A stretch of DNA of 64,000 nucleotides, taken from assembly GCA_964036155.1 (NCBI GenBank), contig OZ038423.1, positions 2,247,249-2,311,248 of the forward strand, in the 5' to 3' direction. The stretch is from Diploscapter coronatus. Its lineage: Eukaryota; Nematoda; Chromadorea; Rhabditida; Rhabditidae. The notes beneath the pieces were generated by a model. It did no database searches and had not been told where the DNA came from. It saw only the letters and a program-made list of their open reading frames with translations. The position numbers and the translations under genes are program-made. Positions 74 to 44,341 of the stretch are shown here, in pieces (the stretch's first letter is position 1; each line of letters begins with the position of its first letter).

Positions 74-2212
74 GTCAGACATGTTGTGGATCCAATACAG
101 TCGGTTGGATGTTCAGAGGAATACGTTACGCGAAGCCTCCTGTCGGTGACTTGAGATTTGCGGTAACTAACAATTCTTATCCTTTTTTTCTCAAATTCAC
201 CTCTAGAACGCTCAAAGAAGCGATCCCCAAGGACACATCGATGCTATGAATTATGGCAAGGAGTGCAGTCAAAACAACGTCACTAACGAGGACTGTCTTT
301 TTGTTAACGTGTTCACTCCAATTGTGAGAAATATTCCAAGAAGTGACCTGAATTCGCTGATTCAGGGAGTAAATTCATCACGGAAGTTGCCTGTGCTGTT
401 CTACATACACGGCGGCGGCTGGGTGGATGGAAGTGGTGCCTTTGGGAGTGGAATCTACCCGAACATCGTTAACCGAGGCCCAGTCGTCATGGCGTCCATC
501 AACTATCGTCTTGGACCCTTTGGTAGATAGCCCATAAAACCATCAGCTATCCTGCGAGTTTAGGTTTCTTCACGTCGAGAGAAGATACGATCCCAGGAAA
601 TTTCGCGATCTCAGACATGATCGAAGCTTTGAATTGGGCCAAACGCTACATTTCTTTCTTCGGAGGCGACCCTGATCGAATCACTATAGACGGTCATAGG
701 TACCGGAAAAGGTTGATCTGTTAGGATTTTGCATTTTCAGCTCCGGCGGAGAGTCCATCTCCACCCTAACGCTGTCTCCTCCAGCCAGAGGTTCTAAAAC
801 TTCCTGAAGAAAAAGCGAAAATTCAAGTTCTAGGCCTCTTCAAGCAAGCCATCTTCCAAAGTGGAACTGCCTTCGGCGGAGGTGTCTCTCTTTGCCCGTA
901 CAGAAACTCGAGCATACAACTGGCGATCAAACTTGGATGCGCCACAGCTGATCAATGGAACTCGGGACAGAACTTCAAAGTTAATAAAACGACTCCTGAG
1001 TTTCTTATTTCTCGATGGATTTAGCAAATTCTCCAATGTATGAGATCAGTCAATGCTTCAGCTCTTCAATATGACGACCTCCATTTCCCTTACAGACATT
1101 TTATGGAATGGGGCACTGAGATTGTGGGTTTTAATAATTTTATCATTTCATGCACAAGCGCGTCTTCAAATCGACGTAAGAAATGTTTTGTAGCGACGGA
1201 TATTTTACTAAAACATAGATGAACAGCTTGGCAGCAATGTGTTTATTCAGGACAAGTTCTTCATTCCCGACTCTCTCGAGAATCTGGCTCTGCAAAGACC
1301 GAAGATCAATGTGATGGCGGGAGATGTCACCACCGAATGGCTTGCTTGGGGTTAGATTGACCATCTGAATACCCATCGATCATCTTTAGAGTCCAACAAT
1401 ATCAAGGATGGTCGGATGTACAGTAGCTCGTTCACTAGACAGGGTATCATTGGGCAATTAAAGAGCATGTACGAACTGCATTGCTTCAATAATTACGGTT
1501 AGAAATACTTTCGTTTTCTTGACAATATTACTACAAACTTCAGATGCCGTCTTGCAGGGAGCCCAAGCGTACTACATCGATCCCAGGGAATTCGCTGATG
1601 ACGATCATGTCGAATGGATGAACTTGTGGATCAATGTAGGCCCGTCGGAAATCATTGTTGGAAAAGAACTTCAGTTGATGAGCGACTTGGATTTCACTGC
1701 GGGTGTTCTTCGGGATGCAAAGTATTTTGCCTACACTGGCTCGGACACTTACATCTACAGCTTCGACTATTTCTCGCCCTTAGCATATTCTTGGCTCAAC
1801 ATCAGTACACTGAGAAATGCTCCGCATAGTTGGGAAATGGACTATCTGTTTTCGACTGGTAAAGATCGACTTTCTTTCTGAAAACATATGGATTTTAGCT
1901 TGTAACGGTTATACTTGTCAAGCAGAAGATATGGCGTTGAAAGAAATCATGCAAAAGTGCTGGGTCAATTTTATTTTGACTGGAAATCCCACACCAATCA
2001 ACGGGGGTTTGTCGTTCGTTTGGCCAAAGCTGGATAACAATAATCGATTTTTGTCATTCTTGCCAACTCCTCAGGTGAGCTTCAAAAATATTCACGGTTA
2101 ATTCTCGAGGAAACTATTCAACTTTTAGGTCCTGAGTAACTTTCATCCCACAACGAATTTCTTCGCTTGCCAAGCCCCGACACTAGCTGGATCGAAACCT
2201 CCATTTTGTTAG
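74..2212 (+). CDS. Type-B carboxylesterase, copy A (5' end outside window)
   Basis: Alpha/beta-hydrolase of the carboxylesterase/cholinesterase family, expected to hydrolyse carboxylic esters, probably secreted or luminal. Exons: 74-162, 207-323, 366-522, 564-699, 741-790, 834-979, 1025-1123, 1251-1350, 1390-1497, 1544-1858, 1899-2074, 2129-2212; all phases join. Visible marks are the NEDCLFVNVFTP signature, the YIHGGGW oxyanion loop, the nucleophile elbow GHSSGG (split by an intron inside the Ser codon), a likely acid Glu in AGDVTTEW, and a likely catalytic His in APHSWEM. The signal-peptide exon lies upstream of the window, by analogy with copies B and C. The open stretch 1638-1676 sits exactly where B and C have an intron and may itself be a 39-nt intron. 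Family assignment is firm; the substrate is unknown. Confidence 0.88.
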
Positions 2213-2424
2213 AACTGTTTTTGCATGTATATTCGTGATAAATTGTTTGAGCTTTCATCTTTGTTCACAATTCATAGATTATGTTGTGCCGACACATTTC
2301 GCTTTCTATAGCACAAAATTCCTTGTTTTATCAGAGCTGCGTCTGCAGATTAACCGATAAATTTCAATGCTATGAAGTGTCCAAGCATTTTCATTTCTTG
2401 GTTATCGAAATATTTGCACTCGAA

Positions 2425-4814
2425 ATGCTCATTATTTTGCTCGGCTCACTTTTTACCCTAATAAAATCTGACATCGTCAATATCCAAATTTCGACTGGTA
2501 ATGTCAGTGCTACGATTCAAGGTTAGTTTTCTTTCAAATATTTCATCACTCGAAAATGGGTACATATCAAATCATACATTTAAATAGTTCGCACACACTG
2601 AATTGATTGAAACAGACGAGATAATTTCAGGTCAGACATGCTGTGGGGCAGACACGCGAGGTTGGATGTTCCGAGGCATACCCTATGCTCAGCCCCCAGT
2701 GGGAGACCTTAGATTTTCGGTATCAATTATCTCTTTACCTATTCTTAACTCTTTTTCCAGTACGCTCAAAGAATGGACCCTCAAGGCGTTGTGAACGCAA
2801 CTGAATACGGGGACTATTGCAGTCAAGGCGATCATGTCCAGGAAGATTGCCTCTTTATTAACGTGTTCACCCCTGTGGTATGGAAAATCTGGAATTATTT
2901 TCAAAGATCTGCATATTTAGGGTGTAAATTCTTCAATGCGTCTTCCAGTATTCTTCTACATACATGGAGGTGGCTGGGAGGGTGGAAGTGGTGCTTTTGG
3001 ACCAGGAATCTATCCGAATCTGATCAATCGCGGTCCCCTCGTGATGGTCTCAATTAACTACAGATTGGGACCGTTCGGTAGTTGTTCGGTTATTTTCTCC
3101 GAATTTCATCAATTTGAGGGTTCTTTACATCGAGAGAAGGCACGATTCCCGGCAACTTCGCTATTTCCGATATGATTGAGTCATTGAACTGGGCCAAGCG
3201 GTACATTTCTTTCTTCGGAGGTGATCCAAGCAGAATCACTATTTGTGGACAGAGCTCAGGGGGCGAATCCATCTCAACGTTAACATTGTCACCCGCAGCA
3301 AGAGGTAATCACTCTTCAAAATAAGAAGAAATTGCCCATTTAGGGCTCTTCAATCAGGCTATCATGCAGAGTGGCTCAGCTTTTGGTGGGGGAGTATCAC
3401 TTTGTGACTACCGAAACTCGAGCATCCAGTTGGCAATGACGCTGGGCTGCACTACTGCGGATCAGTGGAATTCCGGACAGAATTTCGCTGTAGGTTTTTA
3501 ATTTTTAAAAATGAAAAAGTTTAAGTAAATCACAATCTGGTCAGACAATGTGTCGTAAATAGCAAAAATTAATATGACAACATTCAGCAAATCCTCCAAT
3601 GCATGAGGTCAGCCAACGCCACAACGCTCCAGGACGCCGATCTGCATTTCCCTTACAGACATTTCATGGACTGGGGCACCGTTATCGTAAGGTTCTTTTC
3701 TGTAACTCAAAATAAAGAACATTTAAGGACAAACTCTATATGCCAGATACATTGGAAAATCTCGCCATGCAACGACCTCCGATGAATGTTATGGGCGGTG
3801 ACGTAGCTACAGAGTGGCTGGCTTGGGGTAGGATATTCTGTTATTTTCTCTATTATCAAGATGTATAAGGTAAAAAATGATCTATAATTGCTATTTGTAA
3901 AGTTATTTTTGAACCATTCATTCCAGAAACATACATTTCAGAAGAATGGTGGATTCAAAACGAGCTCAACAGTAGCTACTTCACGCGGCAAGGTGTGACC
4001 AATCAACTGAAGACGACCTACGAGATGCACTGTTGGAACAATTACGACGCTGTCGTCCAAGGAGCTCAACAGTACTACATCGATTCTCAGTTTATGTTCG
4101 AAACTGATCATGTCGGGTGGATGTCAGTTTGGATTAATGTAAGTGAGAGGACCTGAAGAGAATCCAGCCTTGAAAACGTTCAGCGAATGAAAAACATCGT
4201 AGGCAGGGGTCTGTGTTTAGAATTTACCAAAAGTCTTGCCTAGTTCTGGAAAGGTTGAACTTGAAAGAGTTTAGTTGATGAGCGACCTCGATTTCACTGC
4301 TGCTGTTCTTCGCGATTTGAAATATTTCACCACTACCGGATCAAACGCATACCTATACAGCTTCGACTACTTCAGCCCTCTAGCTTGGACGTGGCTGAAC
4401 ATAACTGAACTAAGACAGGCACCACACTCCTGGGAAATGCCGTATTTGTATGATGAAGGTGAGTTATGATGCATGCTCTCTTCTCATGATATGTTATTAG
4501 CTTGTAACGGCTATACTTGTCAAGCAGAAGATAATGCTCTGAGAGATATAATTCAAAAGTGCTGGGTCAATTTTATTTTGACTGGAAATCCCACACCAAT
4601 CAACGGGGGTTTGTCGTTCGTTTGGCCAAAGCTGGATAACAATAATCGATTTTTGTCATTCTTGCCAACTCCGCAGGTGAGCTTCAAAAATATTCACGGT
4701 CAATTCTCGAAGAAATTATTCAATTTTTAGGTCCTGAGTAACTTTCACCCCACAACGAATTTCTTCGCTTGTCAAGCCCCGACATTAGCTGGATCGAAAC
4801 CTCCATTTTGTTAA
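2425..4814 (+). CDS. Type-B carboxylesterase, copy B
   Basis: Complete tandem paralogue, about 543 aa, the usual length for the family. Exons: 2425-2521, 2631-2719, 2761-2877, 2921-3077, 3119-3304, 3344-3489, 3588-3686, 3728-3827, 3942-4138, 4275-4458, 4501-4676, 4731-4814. The start is chosen because it opens a hydrophobic signal peptide (MLIILLGSLFTLI). Motifs: QEDCLFINVFTP, YIHGGGW, nucleophile GQSSGG uninterrupted by an intron, Glu in GDVATEW, His in APHSWEM. The 9-10 junction is less certain: a small extra exon near 4184-4198 would also fit. An AATAAA lies at 4835-4840. Exons 1-5 are nearly identical to copy C, introns included, and the last two exons are nearly identical in all three copies. 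Confidence 0.88.
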
Positions 4815-5083
4815 GATTGTTTTTGTACATTATCAATAAATTATTTTGAACTTGCATCTATGCTAACAGTGATTAGTATAAATGGTCTCATTTGGTTGCA
4901 CTATTTTAAAAGGTTCAATTGAATACAATTATTAGAAGATGTTAACTTTTCAAGGCCCTTTCTTCAATCACCAATTTTCTCGTTCCTTATCAGAGTTGCA
5001 CCTGCAGATTAACCGATAAATTTCAATGCTATGAAGTGTCCAAGCATTTTCATTTTTTGATTATCGAAATATTTGCACTCGAA

Positions 5084-7478
5084 ATGCTCATTATTCTGCT
5101 TGGCTCTCTTTTTATCCTAATAAAATCTGACATTGTCAATATCCAAATTTCGACTGGTAATGTCAGTGCTACGATTCAGGGTTAGTTTCCTTTTAAATAT
5201 TTCATCACTCGAAAATGGGTACATATCAAATCATAAATTTAAATAGTTCGCACACACGGAATTGATTGAAACAGACGAGATAATTTCAGGTCAGACATGC
5301 TGTGGGGCAGACACGCGAGGTTGGATGTTCCGAGGCATACCCTATGCTCAGCCCCCAGTGGGAGACCTTAGATTTTCGGTAATCGTTTTTTTCAATTTGA
5401 AAGATAAATTTTGAAATTCAGTATGCCCAAAGAATGGATCCTCAGGGCGTTGTGAACGCAACTGAATACGGGGACTATTGCAGTCAAGGCGATCATGTCC
5501 AGGAAGATTGCCTCTTTATTAACGTGTTCACCCCTGTGGTATGGAAAATCTGGAATTATTTTCAAAGATCTGCATATTTAGGGTGTGAATTCTTCAATGC
5601 GTCTTCCAGTATTCTTCTACATACACGGAGGTGGCTGGGAGGGTGGAAGTGGTGATTTTGGACCAGGAATCTATCCGAATCTGATCAATCGCGGTCCCCT
5701 CGTGATGGTCTCAATTAACTACAGATTGGGACCGTTCGGTAGTTGTTCGATTATTTTCTCTGGATTTCATCAATTTGAGGGTTCTTTACATCGAGAGAAG
5801 GCACGATTCCCGGCAACTTCGCTATTTCCGATATGATTGAGTCATTGAACTGGGCCAAGCGGTACATTTCTTTCTTCGGAGGTGATCCAAGCAGAATCAC
5901 TATTTGTGGTAATTTGAAAACAAAAAAGAATAAAATTCACGGCTTTTTCCGATTTTAGGCGAAAGTTCTGGCGGAGAATCGATCAGTACATTGACATTGT
6001 CTCCACCTGCTAAAGGTAGTGAACATCAAAATTGAATTCCACAACGAATTGAATGATTCAGGACTCTTCAACCAAGCGATTATGGAAAGTGGCTCAGCTT
6101 TTGGTGGGGGAGTATCACTTTGTGACTACCGAAACTCTAGCATCCAGTTGGCAATGACGCTGGGCTGCACTACTGCGGATCAGTGGAATTCCGGACAGAG
6201 TTTCGCTGTAGGTTTTTAATTTCTAGAAATGGAGGAGTTTAAGTAAATCACAATTTGACTAGACAATGTGTTGTATATAATAAAAATTAATATGACAACA
6301 TTCAGCAAATCCTCCAATGCATGAGGTCAGTCAACGCCACAACGCTCCAGGACGCCGATCTGCATTTCCCTTACAGACACTTCATGGATTGGGGCACCGT
6401 TATCGTAAGGTTCTTTTCTGTAACTCAAAATAAAGAACATTTAAGGACAAACTCTATATGCCAGATACATTGGAAAATCTCGCCATGCAACGACCTTCGA
6501 TGAATGTCATGGCTGGAGACACTACCACTGAATGGTTACTTTGGGGTAAATTATACGAAAACAATAAAATTATTATAGCTATAAATGAGCACGTCAGAAC
6601 AATCAACCCTTGTGTATCGCTTCGTCCGCTTATTCTTCTGAAACCTAGAAGTTTCAGAACAAGGCAACATTCAAAATAACTTGAACAGCAGTTCTTTCAC
6701 GAGGCAAGGCATCATCAACCAACTGAAAGGACTGTATGAAATGCACTGCTGGAACAATTATGGTATGGGAAGTTTCCTTCAGTCAAGCAGATTCCGATTT
6801 CAGATGCCGTCCTGCAGGGAGCTCAAGCGTACTACATCGATGCCAACAACATGGTGGATGACGATCACGTCGGATGGATGAGCTTGTGGATCACCGTAGG
6901 ATCTAGAAATCTTTCTGAAATAAAAAGGAAATACTCAGCTTATGAGTGACCTGGACTTCACCGCGGCACTCCTGAGGGACATGAAATATTTCACCACTAC
7001 CGGATCAAACGCATACCTATACAGCTTCGACTACTTCAGCCCTCTAGCTTGGCCATGGCTGAACATAACTCAACTAAGACAGGCACCTCATACATGGGAG
7101 ATGGATTACCTCTATTCTGAGGGTTTGATTATAAATTAACTAAATTCAGAACTTCAATTCTTAGATTGTAACGGTTATACTTGTCAAGCAGAAGATATGG
7201 CGTTGAAGGAAACCATCCAAAAGTGCTGGGTCAATTTTATTTTGACTGGAAATCCCACACCAATCAACGGGGGTTTGTCGTTCGTTTGGCCAAAGCTGGA
7301 TAACAATAATCGATTTTTGTCATTCTTGCCAACTCCGCAGGTGAGCTTCAAAAATATTCACGGTTAATTCTCGAGGAAATTATTCAACTTTTAGGTCCTG
7401 AGTAACTTTCACCCCACAACGAATTTCTTCGCTTGTCAAGCCCCGACATTAGCTGGATCGAAACCTCCATTTTGTTAA
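5084..7478 (+). CDS. Type-B carboxylesterase, copy C
   Basis: Third tandem paralogue, with its signal peptide starting at 5084. Exons: 5084-5180, 5290-5378, 5422-5538, 5582-5738, 5780-5908, 5959-6015, 6062-6207, 6306-6404, 6446-6545, 6658-6762, 6804-6895, 6939-7122, 7165-7340, 7395-7478; all phases join. Motifs: QEDCLFINVFTP, YIHGGGW, elbow GESSGG with an intron in the preceding Gly codon, Glu in AGDTTTEW, His in APHTWEM. It has two more introns than copy B. An AATAAA lies at about 7529. The next gene (8176-9426) is convergent. All three copies keep the catalytic residues, so none looks like a pseudogene. Confidence 0.88.
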
Positions 7479-10435: not shown

Positions 10436-11928
10436 TTAAGTTAGCTGGTTCGAAGCTTTTTTCGCAATAAAATATATTTTAACATACCCATTAACAATAA
10501 AATAAATTAACGGATAGATTCCCGAATTGAAGATCCACATGAAGTTCAGTGCCATGTATGACCACAAGTTTTGAGGTAGGAGAACCTTGATAATAGCAAT
10601 ATAATAATAGAATACTAATATTGCACGTGATACCTGATAATTATGCCACAAAATATTCAATACACTACAATAGGCGGTGACGACAAAGGCTTGAATCAGT
10701 ACTTTGACTTCGGCGTATGATTTTTTTGAAGCCATGAAACGTTGACGCTAAAAATGCCTTTTTGAACATTTTGAAATATAGTAATATGAAATAATCTCAC
10801 CGTTCTACACAGTAGAATAACGATGATCAAATATAGAAATCCGGACACAAAAATACCACCGACTTCGATAAATTCTTCGATATCTTGAACCACTTGCGAA
10901 TATTTGTAGTTATCTCGATCATAATCCCAAGAATACCTAATTTTTATCTATTAATTTTAAACTCGAGCAAGATTTACCAATCTGGAAAATAAATAATCGT
11001 GGCATACGGTGAAGCCAAGGCTATTGAAAAGCATGCGCTAATGAATATTGAGACACTTAGCCACGCCTGGAAACGAAGCGTTAAATTGAACGAAAATACT
11101 TTTTGTCCAAAAAACCCGAGACTTACATAAACGGTTTTAGCAGAGAACAGAACAGGATCATATCTTGGGAAGGCCACTTGAATAAATCGATTGATAGATA
11201 AAATAATAGTTAAAACAGCGTATCCTACATAGCCTGGAGTCGCGATAGAACCCATGTACTAAGATTGGAATATTTCTCTACCAGTTACTTTTTCAGGTTT
11301 GGCAGCGTTTTAGCGAGATTCTCCATGCGAAGAACCTTTGCTCAACACGTTCTACCAATTTTTGCATGTCAATTTGCATCACACTTGTAGAAAAATCTAA
11401 TTTTGAGTGCATCCTCCCCACTAAAGTTTCCCATTCGACCGAAGCGTCCCAGCTTCAATTATTCTTTCCCTACCTTTCCGAAGCCATAACCAAACGTAGT
11501 TTGAGTGATCGTGAAAATTCCTGTCATGAAGTGAGGGAACAATTGAATAATGTCATAGATACCCAGAGTAAACATAATTTTATACGAGGGTAGCTTGAAT
11601 AGTTCTTTGTCTCTGTAGATAATCTACAAATTTGCAAATTAGCAGATTAAATTAAATTTTGACACATACGGTTAAAATAGCAGAATAAGCTAGTCCGCAC
11701 ATAATGGAAAGGACCATCATGGCACTACCGACAATAATGTCAGTGGTGGGGGTGCGGCCTAAAATTCAAATAAATTCTAAGGGTTATAAGAAACAAATTT
11801 TCAACCTTATGTCAACACTATCAATTAGTTTACTTTTAATTTATATTCCAAACATTTTGAGGCCTACCATTTCCCTCTTCAGTAGCGCTAGAAGCATCTT
11901 CAATAGCTACGGTAGTAATGCTATCCAT
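10436..11928 (-). CDS. 7TM chemoreceptor, Srt-like, copy 2
   Basis: Paralogue of the 8176-9426 gene. Exons: 11928-11868, 11758-11670, 11623-11474, 11258-11127, 11066-10978, 10936-10801, 10747-10634, 10585-10436; about 306 aa. Exons 2-5 and 7 have the same lengths as in copy 1 (89, 150, 132, 89 and 114 nt). The first exon is longer and encodes an acidic N-terminus beginning MDSITTVAIEDASS. Landmarks: DIIVGSAMMVLSIM (TM1), SINRFIQVAFPRYD (TM3 end), LNFMWIFNSGIYPLIYF (TM7), then a short basic tail. Copy 1 has an intron just after TM7. Here the reading continues to a stop 17 codons later, though a splice at the same place (GTATGT) cannot be excluded. Confidence 0.78.
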
Positions 11929-14334
11929 TTATCATGTAAGTAGTGATTAATCGATTTTCACATATTCAATAGTAGTCGTATGTCTGAAACTGCATTATAC
12001 ATTAGTCGTTACTATGCTTGCAAAAACAATTGCGTTAGATACTTGGCGGCAAAATAATTCAATTCAGGAGTTCATGGAGTGCAGTGCATGAGTATATGAG
12101 TGATAAGCGTAATACTGATATATATCTGGAAATGGTTTGACGCATATATACAAGAAAATAGTTCCTTATATGAAAATCAATAAAATATGCATGAATTCAA
12201 GCTGTAGTTGTCAACATGAAAGATCTAAATTAGATTCAGTCCTAAAATGTGAAAAATTAGGGAAACGAGTAACGACATTAGTTTGTTGATTACCATTTCC
12301 TATTTATACTCTCCTTAAATTTGAAGATTTTCCCATGTAGTAGGAGTGATCGAAAGTCGTTAGAGTTAAATGAAAAATAACAAATTGCTTCAAGTTATGC
12401 AAGAGCAAAAATTCAAATCCACCCACAGATAGGGGAAATTGTTTCGAAATAGATGGTGTTTGAAAAACTGGTTCGACTTGGGATACTGATTTTTAGACGT
12501 GCTGGGAAAAGTCTAATAATAATGTTGACCTCAAAGCTGCAGATTCACACAAAATGAGTGAAAATTTGCAGCACTAATTAAATTACGCATTTCATGTGGC
12601 AAATTTGCGTGCTTGTTCTGGAAGCAATGGTAATTGGGACGAATAGGTTAATTAGTCATTGAATTTTACCCAAAACATGATATATACGAAAATAACGATG
12701 CTTTATTTTTACATCAAAACAATTGACTCATAGGAAAGGTTGAAAATTGAGATAATTTTGAATATAGTTTGACCCACTGAACGAAAGACTTCCCATGGAA
12801 TCACAATTAGAAACCCGCAGCTTGATAACGCTATTTTGAAACATAAATCTAGAAACCAATATTCTTAAATAAAGTAAGAGAAAATCATAGCTACAAAGGC
12901 CTGTGTACTGCGCCTTGTGAGTCAAAATCCCGCTTCCAGTCCATATAATTCCACGATGTAATTATTCTTTTTTCCGTCCGATTATGCGCACCAAGCAGTT
13001 CCCATTTCAACATTGGTATGTGCCACAAGGTACAGATTATTACATATTGCCTTCAAGAATGTAATTTATTATACATGAAACAAATTTATAGCTAACGTTT
13101 TCCTGATTTGATTGATATGAATTGAACGTTCACATTTTGCCGAGTTTATTGGATGTAGAGCAAGTTCTTAATCTTTTGTTATGTACATAAGTCCAATTAG
13201 ATTTTCAATCATATTATATCTCGAGATTTTCGATAGATATTTGTTTATTGGATCAATCCCTGATGATGATACTACGTGTTTCTAGTGAAACACTAGTTTC
13301 ATTTTCATTGAAATATATTATTCTGTCCATATTTTTAGATCACAATATTTCATACTTATGCAAAATTTGCACAAGAATTTGACAGATTAATCATTGAAAC
13401 ATAAATTTTTTTGGAACCCTTCAGGAGCATAACACGTGGACGTCACAATGCCAATTTGCTCGGTGAATCGACTCCCTTGTGGCATATTCTTGCATATTCG
13501 AATTCGTGCAATTCGGGAAATGATAAATGGAACACCTTTTGCCTAGCCACTTCAAACCCTTTGTCTTCTTGTTCAAGAACAAATAATCTTTGGTTTCTTA
13601 TGAACTTTAATATTTTTTAGTTTCTTTCTTGCAAATGAATGCAATTTCAGTCAAAAACTCAATGTATTTATTCGTTTTTGTTCTTCAAAATAACAATCAT
13701 GAAAAATACCCGACGACACAATTTGCACACGAAATCAGAAACACTGATTTTCAAGAGAAATACCGTACCTTAGAAAATTGAAATCGCTTTTGTGCAATGC
13801 GAAAAGCACTCACAAATCACAGATTGTAAAGAGAGATCTGCAGGGGTTTGATTAGAGGGAAATGATATCATCGACTGCTGTTTTTCTGAAGATAAACTCT
13901 TCTTGCTTATCTCGCCAACGATATCATTATGATTTATATACAGAGAATAAAACAAGATTATTAAACTGCACTTCAAAAGTCAACTTATAGAAATGCATCC
14001 TCTGCCGAAGAGCGTTCCGTCATTAGGATCGAGTCGGTGAAAAATTCGGCGGACAGATCTAAAAATTGGGTTGTTAATGGCACTTCAATCACTCGAAATA
14101 TTGGAATGTCGATATTTAATTAACCACCAATTTAAAATGATCTTTCCCAACTAATACGCATAATTTTCAAAGGGAAATTTGAAACAAGCAAGCTTTCAAG
14201 CCATGCAAATTGGTGTGGGAAAAGAACTCTTTCTCTACCACCTCTCATTCTATTTTACAAGGCTTGAGGGCTTGAAAGCTTGTATTTCCTAAGTGTTTTT
14301 TTCAAAACTGTTATCTAGACTAGAAAATTAAATG
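11929..14334. other. Gene-free stretch between receptor genes
   Basis: About 2.4 kb, AT-rich. Scattered short open frames, the longest near 13411-13620, have no splice partners or recognisable motifs. It contains a 14-bp inverted repeat just upstream of the next gene's 3' end, listed separately. Confidence 0.5.
14189..14282. repeat. 14-bp perfect inverted repeat
   Basis: The arm at 14189-14202 is the exact reverse complement of 14269-14282, with a 66-bp spacer. It lies just beyond the stop codon of the minus-strand GPCR, so it may fold in that gene's 3' UTR or be a remnant of a foldback element. Confidence 0.7.
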
Positions 14335-40098: not shown

Positions 40099-43000
40099 AT
40101 GGAAAAGGAGCAATTCGCCAAGGAAGCTGACACCAAGATCAAGGTAAATTGTTTTGAAATTTAAATATTTTCGGATCTTTAATTTCTAAATATTTCTCAT
40201 ACTATTTTTGGATGCATTAATTAATCCATTATAATGTTCTGTAACACATCTTAGCTATACTTTTGAAATTTTTGGTATTTGAAAAATCATCAATTGTTTC
40301 TGTTCATTATCTTTGAGATTTTTAAGTCCTACTTTATCATCAAAATATTGGCGTTTCCAAATTTTGCATTTACTTTATCCATTGTTAACCGCCACCGAAA
40401 ACACGTCACTCTAATGAATTGCATATTCAATTTGAAAAATTCTAAAGCACATTTGAAAATACTTGGAAACAGCTAAATGCCGACCCCTTTCTTTTCCCAC
40501 ACTATTTCACTCTACTCTAGCCTCCCTCTCTCTTTCTAGCTATGGGGATAGTCATTCAGTAACTGCCAAAATACTTATTTCGAATAACTTGCAGGCCTAC
40601 TACCTGATCGGCTATGCAGGCATCACATTCTCGGTGATCTGTCTGCTGTCGATGTGCATCACTCTCCCCGTGGTGTACAACTACGTCAACCAGCTCAAGG
40701 GACAGGCACAGGACGAGTTCCGCACTTGCGAAGAGACCGTCTTCACCGTTCAGTCCTCTCTCGGCGATCTCAGGGTACAGTATTCTAATTTTTGTCTAAG
40801 GATTATACTTCCTGGCTGTTCCTTCACGCAGTAGTCAGTCAAGAATAGGGCGTCAGTTTAGAGATTTTGAAACATAATTTAGTTTCTTATTGATAGAAAC
40901 GAAAATCGTTCGAAAGTCTATGAATGAACACACATGTTTTCGAAGAAACTAAGTAAATCGTATCACAAACAATAGTCATTGAAGTAGCTCTCTCGTTTGC
41001 GAATAATCAAAATACCCAACTTGGAGAATTTTCAGGACAAGGTCCAATCCGGTGCCTTCAACCGCACTCGTGTCGCCAGGGATGCTTATTCCGAAGGTAT
41101 CGAAGGGAGCGGCGAAAGCGTTTATACTTCCGGTACCAACTCCATGCACCCTATGTTCTTTCCGTTCTTTAGACAATTAGAGAAATTAGGGAATGATAGC
41201 CAAAAGCTATATTTAGTTCGAGAGTCCAAACCATGCAACGCACCGTATGGGGTTGTTGGTGCTAGGTAGAAAATGTTGGTTGGAGATGATTTGTTCATAG
41301 TCATCATAGGGTGTATATTCTTACCTCCCATAACACGTAGTCGTACCATATAGTACGCTACTCACCCCAAAATTCACTGCCAATTCCTTCCTCGTTTACC
41401 CATTTTGCGTGAATCTTTTCGTTTGATTAACCACTACGACAAGCATCCGTATTCGAAAATCTTCGTAATGATTCCCACCAAAACTGTTTCCAAGCAACCC
41501 CAGAATACGGATGCGCACGGGAGATGAGCATGTGCTCCCTAGACCATTCTGACCTTTTCTTACCCTGCTCCATTTCCATTTTCTTTTCATCTTGCATGCC
41601 AACAACCCTTCACAGATCAAGGGGATTTGGGAACCGTGAAAATCTAGGATGTTTGACGTCATAACAAAAGACGTGAGATGAAACATTTCCATCCTAGTTT
41701 AGCCGTGTTGCCTATCTATTAGACTTACGGTATCCAAATAACCCCGGTCTACACCTGAACACTCGTAGTGACACTCACCCTATCCACTACCTATCCTCTG
41801 TTGCACTGATCAGTTCGTAGATGATGCTAAATACGACCAATTCAGGCGCCAGCGCAGGAGTAGACAGCTACGACAGCTGCAGCGGATGCTGCTTGCCAGG
41901 ACCTGCTGGTAAGAGGCTTACAAAAATGTCAAAACTGCTTCTTTTCTAAACCTAAATGGCCTAAAGTTGATCTAAAATGACTATTTCCAGGACCTAAGGG
42001 ACCAAGAGGAAACGACGGAAGACCCGGAAGACCTGTAAGTTTCCCAATCTACCAAAAAAATGAAAAATTCGCTCTTGAAACAACCTCTCATCAGTACAAA
42101 TCAAATGAACCCCATGTGTAATATCAAACGACTAATTATTCATATTTCAGGGAGCCCCAGGAGCCAGAGGGTTCGTATCAACTTACTTTTCTCTTGAAAA
42201 TAATACTTATCATGAAATTTCAGACACCCAGGTATCGTATTCATAACATTTAACTCGAGGATTGAGTTTAACTCTGGAGTACAAACCAGTTTTTAAATAA
42301 AATCCGAGTTAGAAGACCAGTATGAATATTTGGAAATCTGCAGGAAGACCACCCCAGACCCCTTGCGAGCCAACCACCCCACCACCATGCCCAGACTGCC
42401 CGGCCGGACCAGCTGTAAGCAAATTGGAATTATCATCAAAAAATCGAGACCAGAGAATTTTCTATCATCCAAAAAATGCTCACTTTTGCCATCCGAAATG
42501 ATTAATCAAGCTCATTCTAACCATATCAACGACCTAGTTTCTTATCCGAATCATTTCAGGGACCCCCAGGAGCTCCGTAAGACCATCTATAATAAATGCC
42601 GAATCAACTCTAGGTAAACGGTAAATTTTCAGAGGACAGCCAGGAGTTCCAGTACGTCGAAAATTTCAATTTATCGTCAAATTTCGGCTATCAAATAAAA
42701 TTGATGGCTAAAAATTTGACGATAAATTAAAATCACCAACTTCAGGGAAGACCAGGAACGTGAGTGGAAATTAGCGCAAAACAGATATATAATTTTTAAA
42801 TTTTCAGCTCAGGAAATCCAGATAAGTCTTCGTTCCATACCTCCTCAAAAACACTATTTTGACCATATTTGCACTCGGAAAACAGCTCTTTCAAATCTTA
42901 TGATCAGAATAGTGATTTCTTGATGATTTGAGCCATCCAATTCTTATCTGACTCGTTTTAAGCCAGCCAGGAAGCTCAGGCCCAGTCGGAGAGGTGCGAA

Positions 43001-44341
43001 AATATTCCAAATCCGAAGGTATTTAATCTTCCAAATTTCAGAAGGGAGCCAACGGTGCCCCAGGAATGCCAGGCAGCGACGGACCATCTGGACCATCTGT
43101 AAATTTTCAGATTATGCTTAAACCCTTTAAAACATCGAAATTTTCACAATTACGAAGTTATTGAACACACATTTCTGAGTCAATTTAAATCGCCATATTG
43201 TGGTCCTTAAAAATCGAGAATATCAATATTTCGAAATATTACAGTTGAAATTAAGCTCAGAGGGCATACAATCTAAATATTCATACCCTAATTTTCAGGG
43301 ACCATCCGAAGCAGAGGGAGCTCCTCAACCAGGCAGACCAGGACAGCCGTAAGAGACCACTTAAATTAACTTCCAGCATTTTAAATATCGAATTTCAGCG
43401 GAAGACCCGGAAATCCAGCTATGTCTTCTATCAATTTATCAACGATTCAGCCCATCAATATGTTCAAAATCTTGATTTTAACCATTTTGAACCGATTGAA
43501 AGCTGACCCTCGTTGATACATTGAGCATTGGCACTGTTTCAGGATCCCCAGGAAGTAAGTTCTTGGATATTTTCGAGTCTTTTTGGGGAAATGTTTGATA
43601 TCGAAACTTTCGACTGTATCTTTCTAGTTCATAGAAGAATGAAATACAAAGTTTGCGATTTTCGGGAAGAGACTGTTGACCAAATTCCTCACAAGTATCG
43701 GGATTAATCGCCGGATTTTCAGACCCAGGATCACCTGGACAAGACGGATCTCCAGGACAAGTAATTCGTTTTCGATTTAATCCCTACATAGCCCTAAATC
43801 TGAGGATTAAAACGATACTCAACAGTCTATATCTCAGACTTAGTGTTAACGCTAAAATTAAATCGAAAATGAATTTGATTACAGCCCGGAGAGAACGGAA
43901 AGTAAGTCTTGATCCTCATCAAATCAGATTGTAATTATGTATTTTCAGGGACGGAAACCCAGGGTAAAATTCTCGGTTTAAATTCCCGAACCAAATAACT
44001 TACCATCGACTTTGCAGAGCCCCAGGAGAGGACGGCCAGAACGGAAGTAAGATTCTTATTTGAATACCTCGATGATAAGCTCTAAATTGAAAATTTTCAG
44101 CGCCCGGATCCGATGGAGTGAGTGCCTCTTTCTCGATCATGAATTTTACCCTAATTTAATATTAATTTATTCGATAATTTTAGCACCCTGGCTCCCCAGG
44201 AGAGAGGTACGGGATTCTTTCCATGCTTGGACTTGTGGTGGCTTTTTCCCCCCTTTCTAATTGAATGTTTTCAGAGGTATCTGCCCCAAGTACTGCGCCA
44301 TCGACGGAGGCATCTTCTTCGAGGACGGAACCAGACGATAA
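40099..44341 (+). CDS. Cuticle collagen split into about 24 exons
   Basis: Typical 307-aa nematode cuticle collagen: N-terminal anchor (YLIGYAGITFSVICLLSM, then VVYNYVNQL), the cleavage region NRTRVARDAY, a Cys knot DSCSGCCLPGPAG, Gly-X-Y blocks broken by PCEPTTPPPCPDCPAG, and the conserved C-terminus ICPKYCAIDGGIFFEDGTRR. Exons: 40099-40143, 40595-40774, 41036-41096, 41846-41908, 41991-42034, 42151-42170, 42224-42231, 42344-42414, 42560-42576, 42633-42651, 42746-42759, 42808-42821, 42971-42993, 43042-43098, 43299-43348, 43399-43418, 43543-43554, 43723-43760, 43885-43901, 43949-43963, 44018-44046, 44101-44117, 44184-44206, 44275-44341. All phases keep Gly-X-Y. Two donors lack GT (42822, 43419). 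AATAAA at 44418. In C. elegans such genes usually have few introns. Confidence 0.9.
41443..41524. repeat. 12-bp inverted repeat in collagen intron 3
   Basis: 41443-41454 is the exact reverse complement of 41513-41524. It lies in the large 749-nt intron. A second, looser foldback lies near 41643-41700. Confidence 0.65.
42232..42343 (+). repeat. Hairpin intron 7 of the collagen
   Basis: Nested complementary segments: 42238-42245 with 42321-42328 (8 bp), 42251-42257 with 42305-42311 (7 bp), 42274-42277 with 42286-42289 (4 bp). It is flanked by an 8-nt and a 71-nt exon. The splice ends are GT and AG. Confidence 0.6.
42652..42745 (+). repeat. Hairpin intron 10 of the collagen
   Basis: A 17-bp perfect inverted repeat, 42668-42684 with 42712-42728, fills most of this 94-nt intron, leaving a 27-nt loop. 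The splice ends are GT and AG. Confidence 0.8.
42822..42970 (+). other. Hairpin intron 12 with an AT donor instead of GT
   Basis: To keep Gly-X-Y the exon must end at 42821 (CCAG) and the intron must start ATAAGT; the 3' end is CCAG. Nested pairing: 42819-42826 with 42943-42950 (8 bp), 42844-42849 with 42927-42932 (6 bp), 42852-42862 with 42904-42914 (11 bp, one G.U). An alternative GT donor at 42827 with the acceptor at 42962 is in frame but breaks the Gly-X-Y repeat by one residue. Confidence 0.6.
43419..43542 (+). other. Hairpin intron 16 with a CT donor instead of GT
   Basis: The exon GGA AAT CCA G must join GA TCC CCA across 43419-43542, so the intron starts CTATGT and ends TTTCAG. No GT donor nearby restores the frame. 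Nested pairing: 43431-43435/43520-43524, 43437-43445/43510-43518 (9 bp), 43447-43451/43502-43506, 43455-43459/43495-43499, 43462-43470/43484-43492 (9 bp). That is 33 pairs in a 124-nt intron. Confidence 0.7.
43555..43722 (+). repeat. Hairpin intron 17 of the collagen
   Basis: Nested pairing: 43576-43584/43666-43674 (9 bp with two G.U), 43601-43610/43648-43658 (10 bp, one bulge), 43616-43619/43644-43647, 43622-43626/43632-43636. It is canonical GT-AG and follows a 12-nt exon. Confidence 0.6.
43761..43884 (+). repeat. Hairpin intron 18 with near-terminal inverted repeats
   Basis: 43763-43781 pairs with 43857-43875 over 19 bp (one G.U), starting two bases into the intron. A second stem pairs 43794-43804 with 43833-43843 (10 of 11). 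The intron is GT-AG. It is nearly all foldback, like a small inverted-repeat element. Confidence 0.8.

Follow-up and report, generated by a model that had tools for sequence, protein, structure and literature searches.

The Collagen Gene and Its Two Chromosome Copies

A window of 64,000 nucleotides (nt) of Diploscapter coronatus DNA (assembly GCA_964036155.1, contig OZ038423.1, positions 2,247,249 to 2,311,248; positions below count from the first letter of this whole stretch) contains a cuticle collagen gene in which several introns are predicted to fold into long hairpins. The gene lies on the plus strand at 40592..44341, running from the exon with the Col_cuticle_N domain (domain match at C2:2287861-2287983) to the stop codon, and its manually placed junctions join into one open frame of Gly-X-Y (GXY) repeats. 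One more 5' exon lies upstream of 40592. At least 22 introns interrupt the gene, and exons of 8–20 nt are numerous, the smallest being 8 nt. The product of the joined exons comprises an N-terminal cuticle domain, a Gly-X-Y region, a PCEPTTPPPC motif, and the C-terminal end PGERGICPKYCAIDGGIFFEDGTRR. A protein of D. pachys matched the N- and C-terminal exons almost exactly. An independent, collagen-specific gene model gave the same introns as the manual one except for intron i9, and added two 5' introns on the plus strand, at 40775..41035 (261 nt) and 41133..41845 (713 nt). A general predicted model recovered most introns and fused 42760-42807 with 42826-42962 and 43419-43542 with 43555-43722.

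The assembly consists of two large contigs, one of 87.7 Mb and one of 82.0 Mb, with a further ~13 kb, and each large contig carries one copy of the gene, the two being 94% identical. This agrees with the published description of D. coronatus, given in excerpts of PMC5483258 as a 170-Mb diploid assembly of two chromosomes with 5.7% divergence. Coordinates prefixed C2 belong to the contig with the window copy, and C1 denotes the homologous chromosome copy that was compared with it.

Folding of the Individual Introns

Fold energies were compared with those of 300 dinucleotide shuffles for 20 introns of the gene, the two most 5' introns (40775-41035 and 41133-41845) lying outside this test. An earlier note on this DNA had listed six introns with long nested pairing; measured against the shuffles, three of these were extreme, one was moderate, and two were at chance level. 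The strongest was i7 at 42652..42745 (+, GT-AG, z −8.5), which has exons of 19 and 14 nt at its sides and 17 uninterrupted pairs in its stem. Intron i15 at 43761..43884 (+, GT-AG, z −5.8) has a 19-bp basal stem with one G-U pair, so the stem lengths of up to 17–19 bp given in the note held. Its count of 33 pairs in one 124-nt intron was slightly exceeded by the 37 pairs in the predicted fold of i13 at 43419..43542 (+, z −6.5). The borders of i13 are ambiguous: the GXY frame gives CT..AG, or GC..CA when shifted by one, and an in-frame GT-AG alternative would add residues that break the GXY repeat. The first and last 8 letters of this intron are the same in C1, and both copies show the CT..AG borders. 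The moderate case was i4 at 42232..42343 (+, GT-AG), which follows the 8-nt exon; its z of −3.0 (p 0.010; z −3.4 in another run) loses significance once the number of introns in the test, 20, is corrected for.

Two of the six listed introns folded no better than shuffled sequence. Intron i14 at 43555..43722 (+, GT-AG) had z +0.7. The other, listed as 42822-42970 and at first read as AT-AG, gave z −0.6 with those borders; because a similar junction occurs in other collagens, they were replaced by putative GT-AG borders at 42826..42962 (+; intron i9), with which the hairpin was also not significant (z −1.0, p 0.16). The junction GAT A[A/T]|G[T/C] resembling that of i9 was seen in collagen loci L044, L041, and L046, and the 3' end TTTTAAG in L044 and L041. 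The remaining 14 of the 20 introns all had z above −0.7.

A sliding fold scan of the whole window (120-nt segments, step 15) gave 21 clusters at z < −3.5. The four hairpin introns accounted for four of these clusters, including the two strongest (−8.0 and −6.4), and none of the clusters inspected outside the collagen gene resembled introns of the hairpin kind. Strong predicted folds also occur outside the gene at 11671-11805 and 13201-13380 (z −5.6).

Hairpin Introns Across the Collagen Family

Forty loci with the Col_cuticle_N domain were surveyed together with the gene at 40592..44341. The loci were chosen by domain and not by hairpins: they are the 30 best domain matches plus ten hand-chosen from the same list, with alleles and overlapping stretches included. 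In total, 449 introns were modelled, and 253 were left after the removal of near-duplicates. Among the non-redundant collagen introns of 80–200 nt, 27 of 81 had z < −3, with 16 of 31 in the 100–130-nt class. Eight further collagen loci were taken as a second set for a later test; L076 yielded no usable model and is excluded from all second-set counts, and among the non-redundant introns of the others 12 of 35 lay below −3. Predicted non-collagen introns of the window reached z < −3 in 0 of 34 cases, with five between −2 and −3, a small sample of predicted models from one window; since some of these models occupy the same DNA on opposite strands, a portion of the 34 must be wrong. The difference from collagen introns had a Fisher p of 2e-5 for the first set and 1.6e-4 for the second, and length-matched random segments of the window (80–160 nt) reached z < −3 in 2 of 116 cases. 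About forty non-redundant hairpin introns (29 + 12) occur in one gene family at the sampled loci, and they are concentrated in the collagen genes.

The predicted pairing spans the hairpin introns and leaves their ends close together. A spanning stem was present in all 29 hairpin introns of the first set, and 26 of them had at least 12 end-to-end pairs. The unpaired stretches at the intron ends measure, at the median, 4 nt on the 5' side and 10 nt on the 3' side of the predicted folds. Very small exons are also characteristic: the smallest flanking exon was ≤17 nt for 93% of the 29 hairpin introns vs. 38% of 48 long non-hairpin introns (Mann–Whitney p 4e-6), and the share was 66% among 115 short introns. 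In the second set, the same was true of 12/12 hairpin introns vs. 10/22 long non-hairpin introns (p 0.0018). Donor sites were weaker, with a mean of 4.17 of 6 consensus letters in hairpin introns vs. 4.56–4.73 in the other classes (p 0.005). Near the 3' end, one of the strings TATGAAT, CTGAAT, TTTGAAT, or TAAGAAT occurred in 13/29 hairpin introns vs. 0/48 and 2/115 of the others, these strings having been picked after viewing the first set; in the second set the counts were 2/12 vs. 0/22. Branch-point strings showed no clear difference between hairpin and other introns.

The borders of the 29 hairpin introns begin with GT in 23, GC in five, and CT in one; all 29 end in AG and 19 in CAG, counts that are partly built in since the gene model penalises borders other than GT/GC-AG. 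All except 43419-43542 (28/29) have GT/GC..AG borders, which places the class with the U2-type spliceosomal introns, marked by such borders and a TTTCAG-like 3' end.

Conservation of the Folds Between Copies and Paralogues

All four structures of the gene (42232-42343, 42652-42745, 43419-43542, and 43761-43884) were predicted again in the C1 copy, with fold energies across the two copies of −26.0/−25.2, −29.9/−31.7, −36.5/−38.7, and −31.4/−45.0 kcal/mol, respectively. In 42652-42745, none of the 60 paired sites differed between the copies and two of the 34 unpaired ones did, and in 43761-43884 all three changes at paired sites preserve pairing. Over eight hairpin introns compared between the copies, 16 of 682 paired sites differed vs. 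26 of 354 unpaired sites (p 2e-4), while the non-hairpin introns of the compared genes differed at 132/1882 paired and 116/1837 unpaired sites (p 0.43). As a separate observation, several changes make the predicted stem of 43761-43884 clearly stronger in C1 (−45.0 vs. −31.4 kcal/mol).

Twelve copies of one collagen intron retain its fold, with 97.7% of alignment cells paired. The covariation score of this alignment was 0.137 vs. 0.108 in shuffles, a value reached by none of 500 shuffles; the count of two-sided cells likewise lay above all 500, and four pairs had changed on both sides.

In two paralogue pairs, L041/L044 and L028/L036, hairpin introns occupy matching positions, and L067 has a relative of the L028/L036 intron. 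Both same-position pairs hold their folding energy; in L028/L036 the intron ends and the energy (−30.7/−31.1) are kept, while the middle has diverged past good alignment. Within single genes, introns 9 and 14 of L047 and introns 10 and 14 of L045 are ~71% alike over 130 and 92 nt, respectively, with similar flanking exons, and are two likely intragenic copies. Taken together, the shared paralogue positions and the similar introns with similar flanks point to duplication of genes and of exon-intron modules as the way in which at least some hairpin introns spread. When L045 was compared with L043 and L050, most hairpin positions were unshared, the alignments being weak (46–48% identical) and in repeats.

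Several side observations concern the history of the family. The collagen genes of L020-L027, L031-L033, and L035 are very similar and scattered over numerous sites on each of the chromosome copies; their intron 3 is ~85–93% alike together with its flanks. Many other collagens form one-to-one allelic pairs. Intron 5 measures 184 nt in L034 and 121 nt at the corresponding place in L030 on the other chromosome copy, a difference of 63 nt, and the fold is significant in L034 alone (z −3.3 vs. −1.4). At L019 and L039, ~0.8 kb with part of a collagen gene on one copy is unaligned at the allelic place; the hairpin intron of L019 sits within this stretch and was rejected as an intron-only presence/absence difference. 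No clean absence of a hairpin intron was found among the few allelic pairs compared.

Search for a Mobile Source

The earlier note had suggested that the hairpin introns could be introner-like copies of a mobile element. An inverted-repeat element of this kind would insert at CCNG|GA in the GXY repeats and bring or complete splice signals, creating both introns and microexons. Several features speak for such an origin. A motif in the arms, ATTCATAGTCAATTTATC, is common to a subset of hairpin introns: the motif search in the 3' arms of the 29 gave a log-likelihood of 109, compared with 50–60 in five non-hairpin samples and 63–74 in five shuffles, and the 5' arms gave 87 vs. 61–67 in eight controls. 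In the second set, the 3'-arm motif was present in 4/12 hairpin introns vs. 1/22 (p 0.04). It is offset from the intron ends by several nucleotides and is only faint in the gene at 40592..44341. The CCNG|GA site flanked 12 of 29 hairpin introns vs. 6 of 163 others (p 1.5e-7), and a model built on six hairpins also matched intron 9 of L019, which is not one of the six (E 6e-4 antisense, 0.01 sense). Set against this, the second set showed less of a preference for CCNG|GA (6/12 vs. 4/22, p 0.11) and there was no clear target-site duplication, the flanking direct-repeat score (7.0 vs. 5.6 and 6.2 of 11, p 0.02) being confounded by the GXY repeats.

Close copies of the searched introns, other than those on the two chromosome copies, were also not found. 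Genome DNA searches with 42652-42745, 43419-43542, 43761-43884, and one intron of another collagen returned only the query itself and the other chromosome copy; thus no highly similar copies at unrelated sites were found for these four, although one of the searches missed relatives at ~73% identity, so that only close copies are excluded. Intron 42232-42343 was searched as DNA only within a whole-stretch query. A one-arm motif pattern gave 100 matches vs. 16 for the reversed control pattern; 20 of the matches lying apart from known collagens were inspected, of which 19 lacked a partner arm and the last proved to be an intron in yet another collagen gene. A two-arm pattern found three loci per chromosome copy (control, one forward and one reverse). 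One is the collagen intron just mentioned; the other two are unlike collagen introns, one having a weak hairpin. In these samples, which are not a full census, no two-armed motif hairpin was confirmed outside collagen genes. Within the gene a covariance model matched only weakly (42665-42732, E 0.31), as it did in the dispersed repeat of L054 (E 0.28). The window was no richer than shuffles in inverted motif pairs. A freely dispersing element was rejected on the missing further copies of the four introns and the missing second arm in 19 of the 20 sampled matches, and free insertion is not supported. An introner origin in the form set out above appears unlikely, although the hairpin introns do share a preferred site and, in a subset, an arm motif.

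Two further observations were made in these searches. At L079 (base ~250-315; C1:57506104), a motif-like two-arm hairpin has no recognisable collagen coding around it. Loci L052, L053, and L054 are three copies of a dispersed repeat with GATGAATTGACTATGAATTTAGCAAGA.

Interpretation of the Hairpin Introns

Nematode introns are mostly very short and are recognised as units. We propose that the hairpin introns are spliceosomal introns whose nearly end-to-end hairpins are under selection to draw the two ends of the intron near each other, and which multiplied with the collagen family by gene and module duplication and not by free transposition; we give this reading a probability of about 0.5. Exons of 8–20 nt are probably too small for exon recognition, so each intron would be recognised as a unit. 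The short introns (45–57 nt) could be recognised in this way unaided, and many of the 90–150-nt introns beside microexons would be so by folding. Looping out the intron body, the hairpin would place the 5' splice site near the 3' end and cancel the distance between the splice sites, leaving the 5' site and the last ~ten nt mostly free. Multiplication would then have followed that of the collagen family, through gene duplication and the intragenic duplication of exon-intron modules.

The starting point for this proposal is a set of computed features, namely the fold, the concentration in collagens, the link to microexons, the weaker donors, the conserved stems of this gene, some shared paralogue positions, and the two likely intragenic copies. 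From them we infer a benefit of folding for splicing and selection at the level of the RNA. The microexon link, the weaker donors, and the conserved stems would all be explained if the hairpin brings the splice sites together. The earlier note had offered as its second suggestion that the fold may join the ends of introns at tiny exons; the association with exons of ≤17 nt, the weaker donors, and the conserved stems, mainly those of this gene, support it, and the role in splicing itself is putative.

A number of observations weigh against the proposal. Among the predicted hairpin folds, 7 of 29 have the first intron base paired, which would mask the donor, and some long introns that flank microexons have no hairpin; the proposal leaves both unexplained. 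The 38% of 48 long non-hairpin introns that adjoin microexons indicate that a hairpin is not required everywhere, and at least 12 end-to-end pairs also occur in 20 of these 48. A stricter donor test (A4 and G5 together) was not significant (p 0.11), and the intron borders are based on the GXY frame and a collagen model that favours GT/GC-AG. The low divergence of stems was driven mainly by the gene at 40592..44341 (four introns, 6/270 vs. 19/184, p 2.7e-4); the four introns of other genes were not significant alone (10/412 vs. 7/170, p 0.28), and L015 and L028 showed the opposite trend between copies. Two-sided compensation between the chromosome copies was looked for in the four introns of the gene and none was seen. 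In the 12-copy alignment, the rows of which are related copies, 106 of 500 shuffles attained as many two-sided pairs and 421 of 500 as many further pair types. Fixed-structure scoring of three intron pairs gave 7/1, 8/0, and 7/3 broken vs. compensated pairs, which indicates that re-pairing, and not strict compensation, keeps the fold.

Maintenance at the level of DNA would account for part of the same evidence. Palindromes formed by template switching or arm-to-arm copying could have arms that correct each other, mimicking compensation with no role in splicing, and the low stem divergence and the paired changes are also expected from such copying. A general mutational process would not be expected to produce the concentration in collagen introns, the association with microexons, or an arm motif across genes, and we consider this reading unlikely. 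The 12-copy alignment tolerates many one-sided changes to G-U; with a similar number of distinct pairs broken, this weighs neither way. Doubtful to a similar degree is a hairpin confined to collagens, in which an inverted-repeat element would spread only by homology between GXY repeats, taking its CCNG|GA flanks along to each new site, creating the collagen microexons of Diploscapter, and later being selected as a splicing aid. Chance or base composition would fit the two listed introns at chance level (42826-42962 and 43555-43722). It is hardly credible beyond them, given z values down to −8.5 against dinucleotide shuffles and z < −3 in only 2 of 116 control segments and 0 of 34 non-collagen introns; it was ruled out for three introns of the gene and for the class, with 42232-42343 moderate.

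Comparison with Known Systems

Cuticle collagens of Caenorhabditis elegans have only a few introns, and for that reason the hairpin introns bear on how introns multiply. Intron structure is usually studied intron by intron, whereas here one family has about forty hairpin introns; the plain introns in the same genes and the two diverged copies make the question of folding and microexons directly testable. Looping of long introns is known in the yeast type. An animal case is that of the non-canonical introns of Fritillaria borealis, reportedly treated by Henriet and colleagues in 2019 and said to originate from repeats. These are likewise animal introns linked with repeats; they are reportedly numerous, diverse, and non-canonical, while those described here are mostly GT/GC-AG.

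Structured spliceosomal introns, including the conventional and intermediate introns of euglenids, are likewise GT-AG with a fold that joins the ends and is thought to help splicing, as stated in excerpts of PMC4770533, and the euglenid structured introns may be the nearest described parallel. The hairpins here differ in being concentrated in one gene family, with microexons, recurring in some paralogues, and sharing an arm motif in a subset; for the conventional and intermediate examples compared in those excerpts, no common structural elements were reported (PMC4770533). Nonconventional euglenid introns similarly have stable pairing that joins the intron ends, and in the same excerpts the authors consider that the stem may carry a 'fingerprint' of the sequence it came from. 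They have non-canonical borders and an unknown route of removal, whereas the borders here are mostly GT/GC-AG, partly favoured by the model, with 43419-43542 ambiguous. Introners, including families with terminal inverted repeats (Gozashti et al. 2022, PMC9860276), have inverted-repeat arms shared between different sites and a preferred context, comparable to the arm motif of a subset here and to CCNG|GA. Unlike the introners of that paper, the hairpin introns yielded no near-identical copies for the four searched, and none were confirmed outside collagen genes in the samples inspected. Its account has introners in only two animal groups, and its main text contains no word starting with 'nematod' (PMC9860276). 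Excerpts of a nematode intron-gain study carry no mention of Diploscapter (PMC9169325), and the Diploscapter htz-1 gene is given two or more introns in part of PMC11139335. Among the papers listed by searches of an open-access library, none describes hairpin introns of Diploscapter or of nematode collagens in its title or the start of its abstract.

Additional Observations

Across the hairpin introns, the one public gene model used for comparison loses the reading frame. This D. pachys protein, P0001 (WR25_00778), is out of frame relative to window positions 42035-44180 over most of the Gly-X-Y middle. It contains the translated intron sequence KTIYNKSRINS, and the D. pachys model therefore fails across the microexons. 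The peptide agrees with the C1 copy at its single differing residue, and P0001 carries I where the C1 and window copies both carry V.

Elsewhere in the window, matches to carboxylesterase (PF00135) were found in all three forward frames at 109-7478 (+). The predicted 33-exon model at 109-7478 probably fuses tandem genes.

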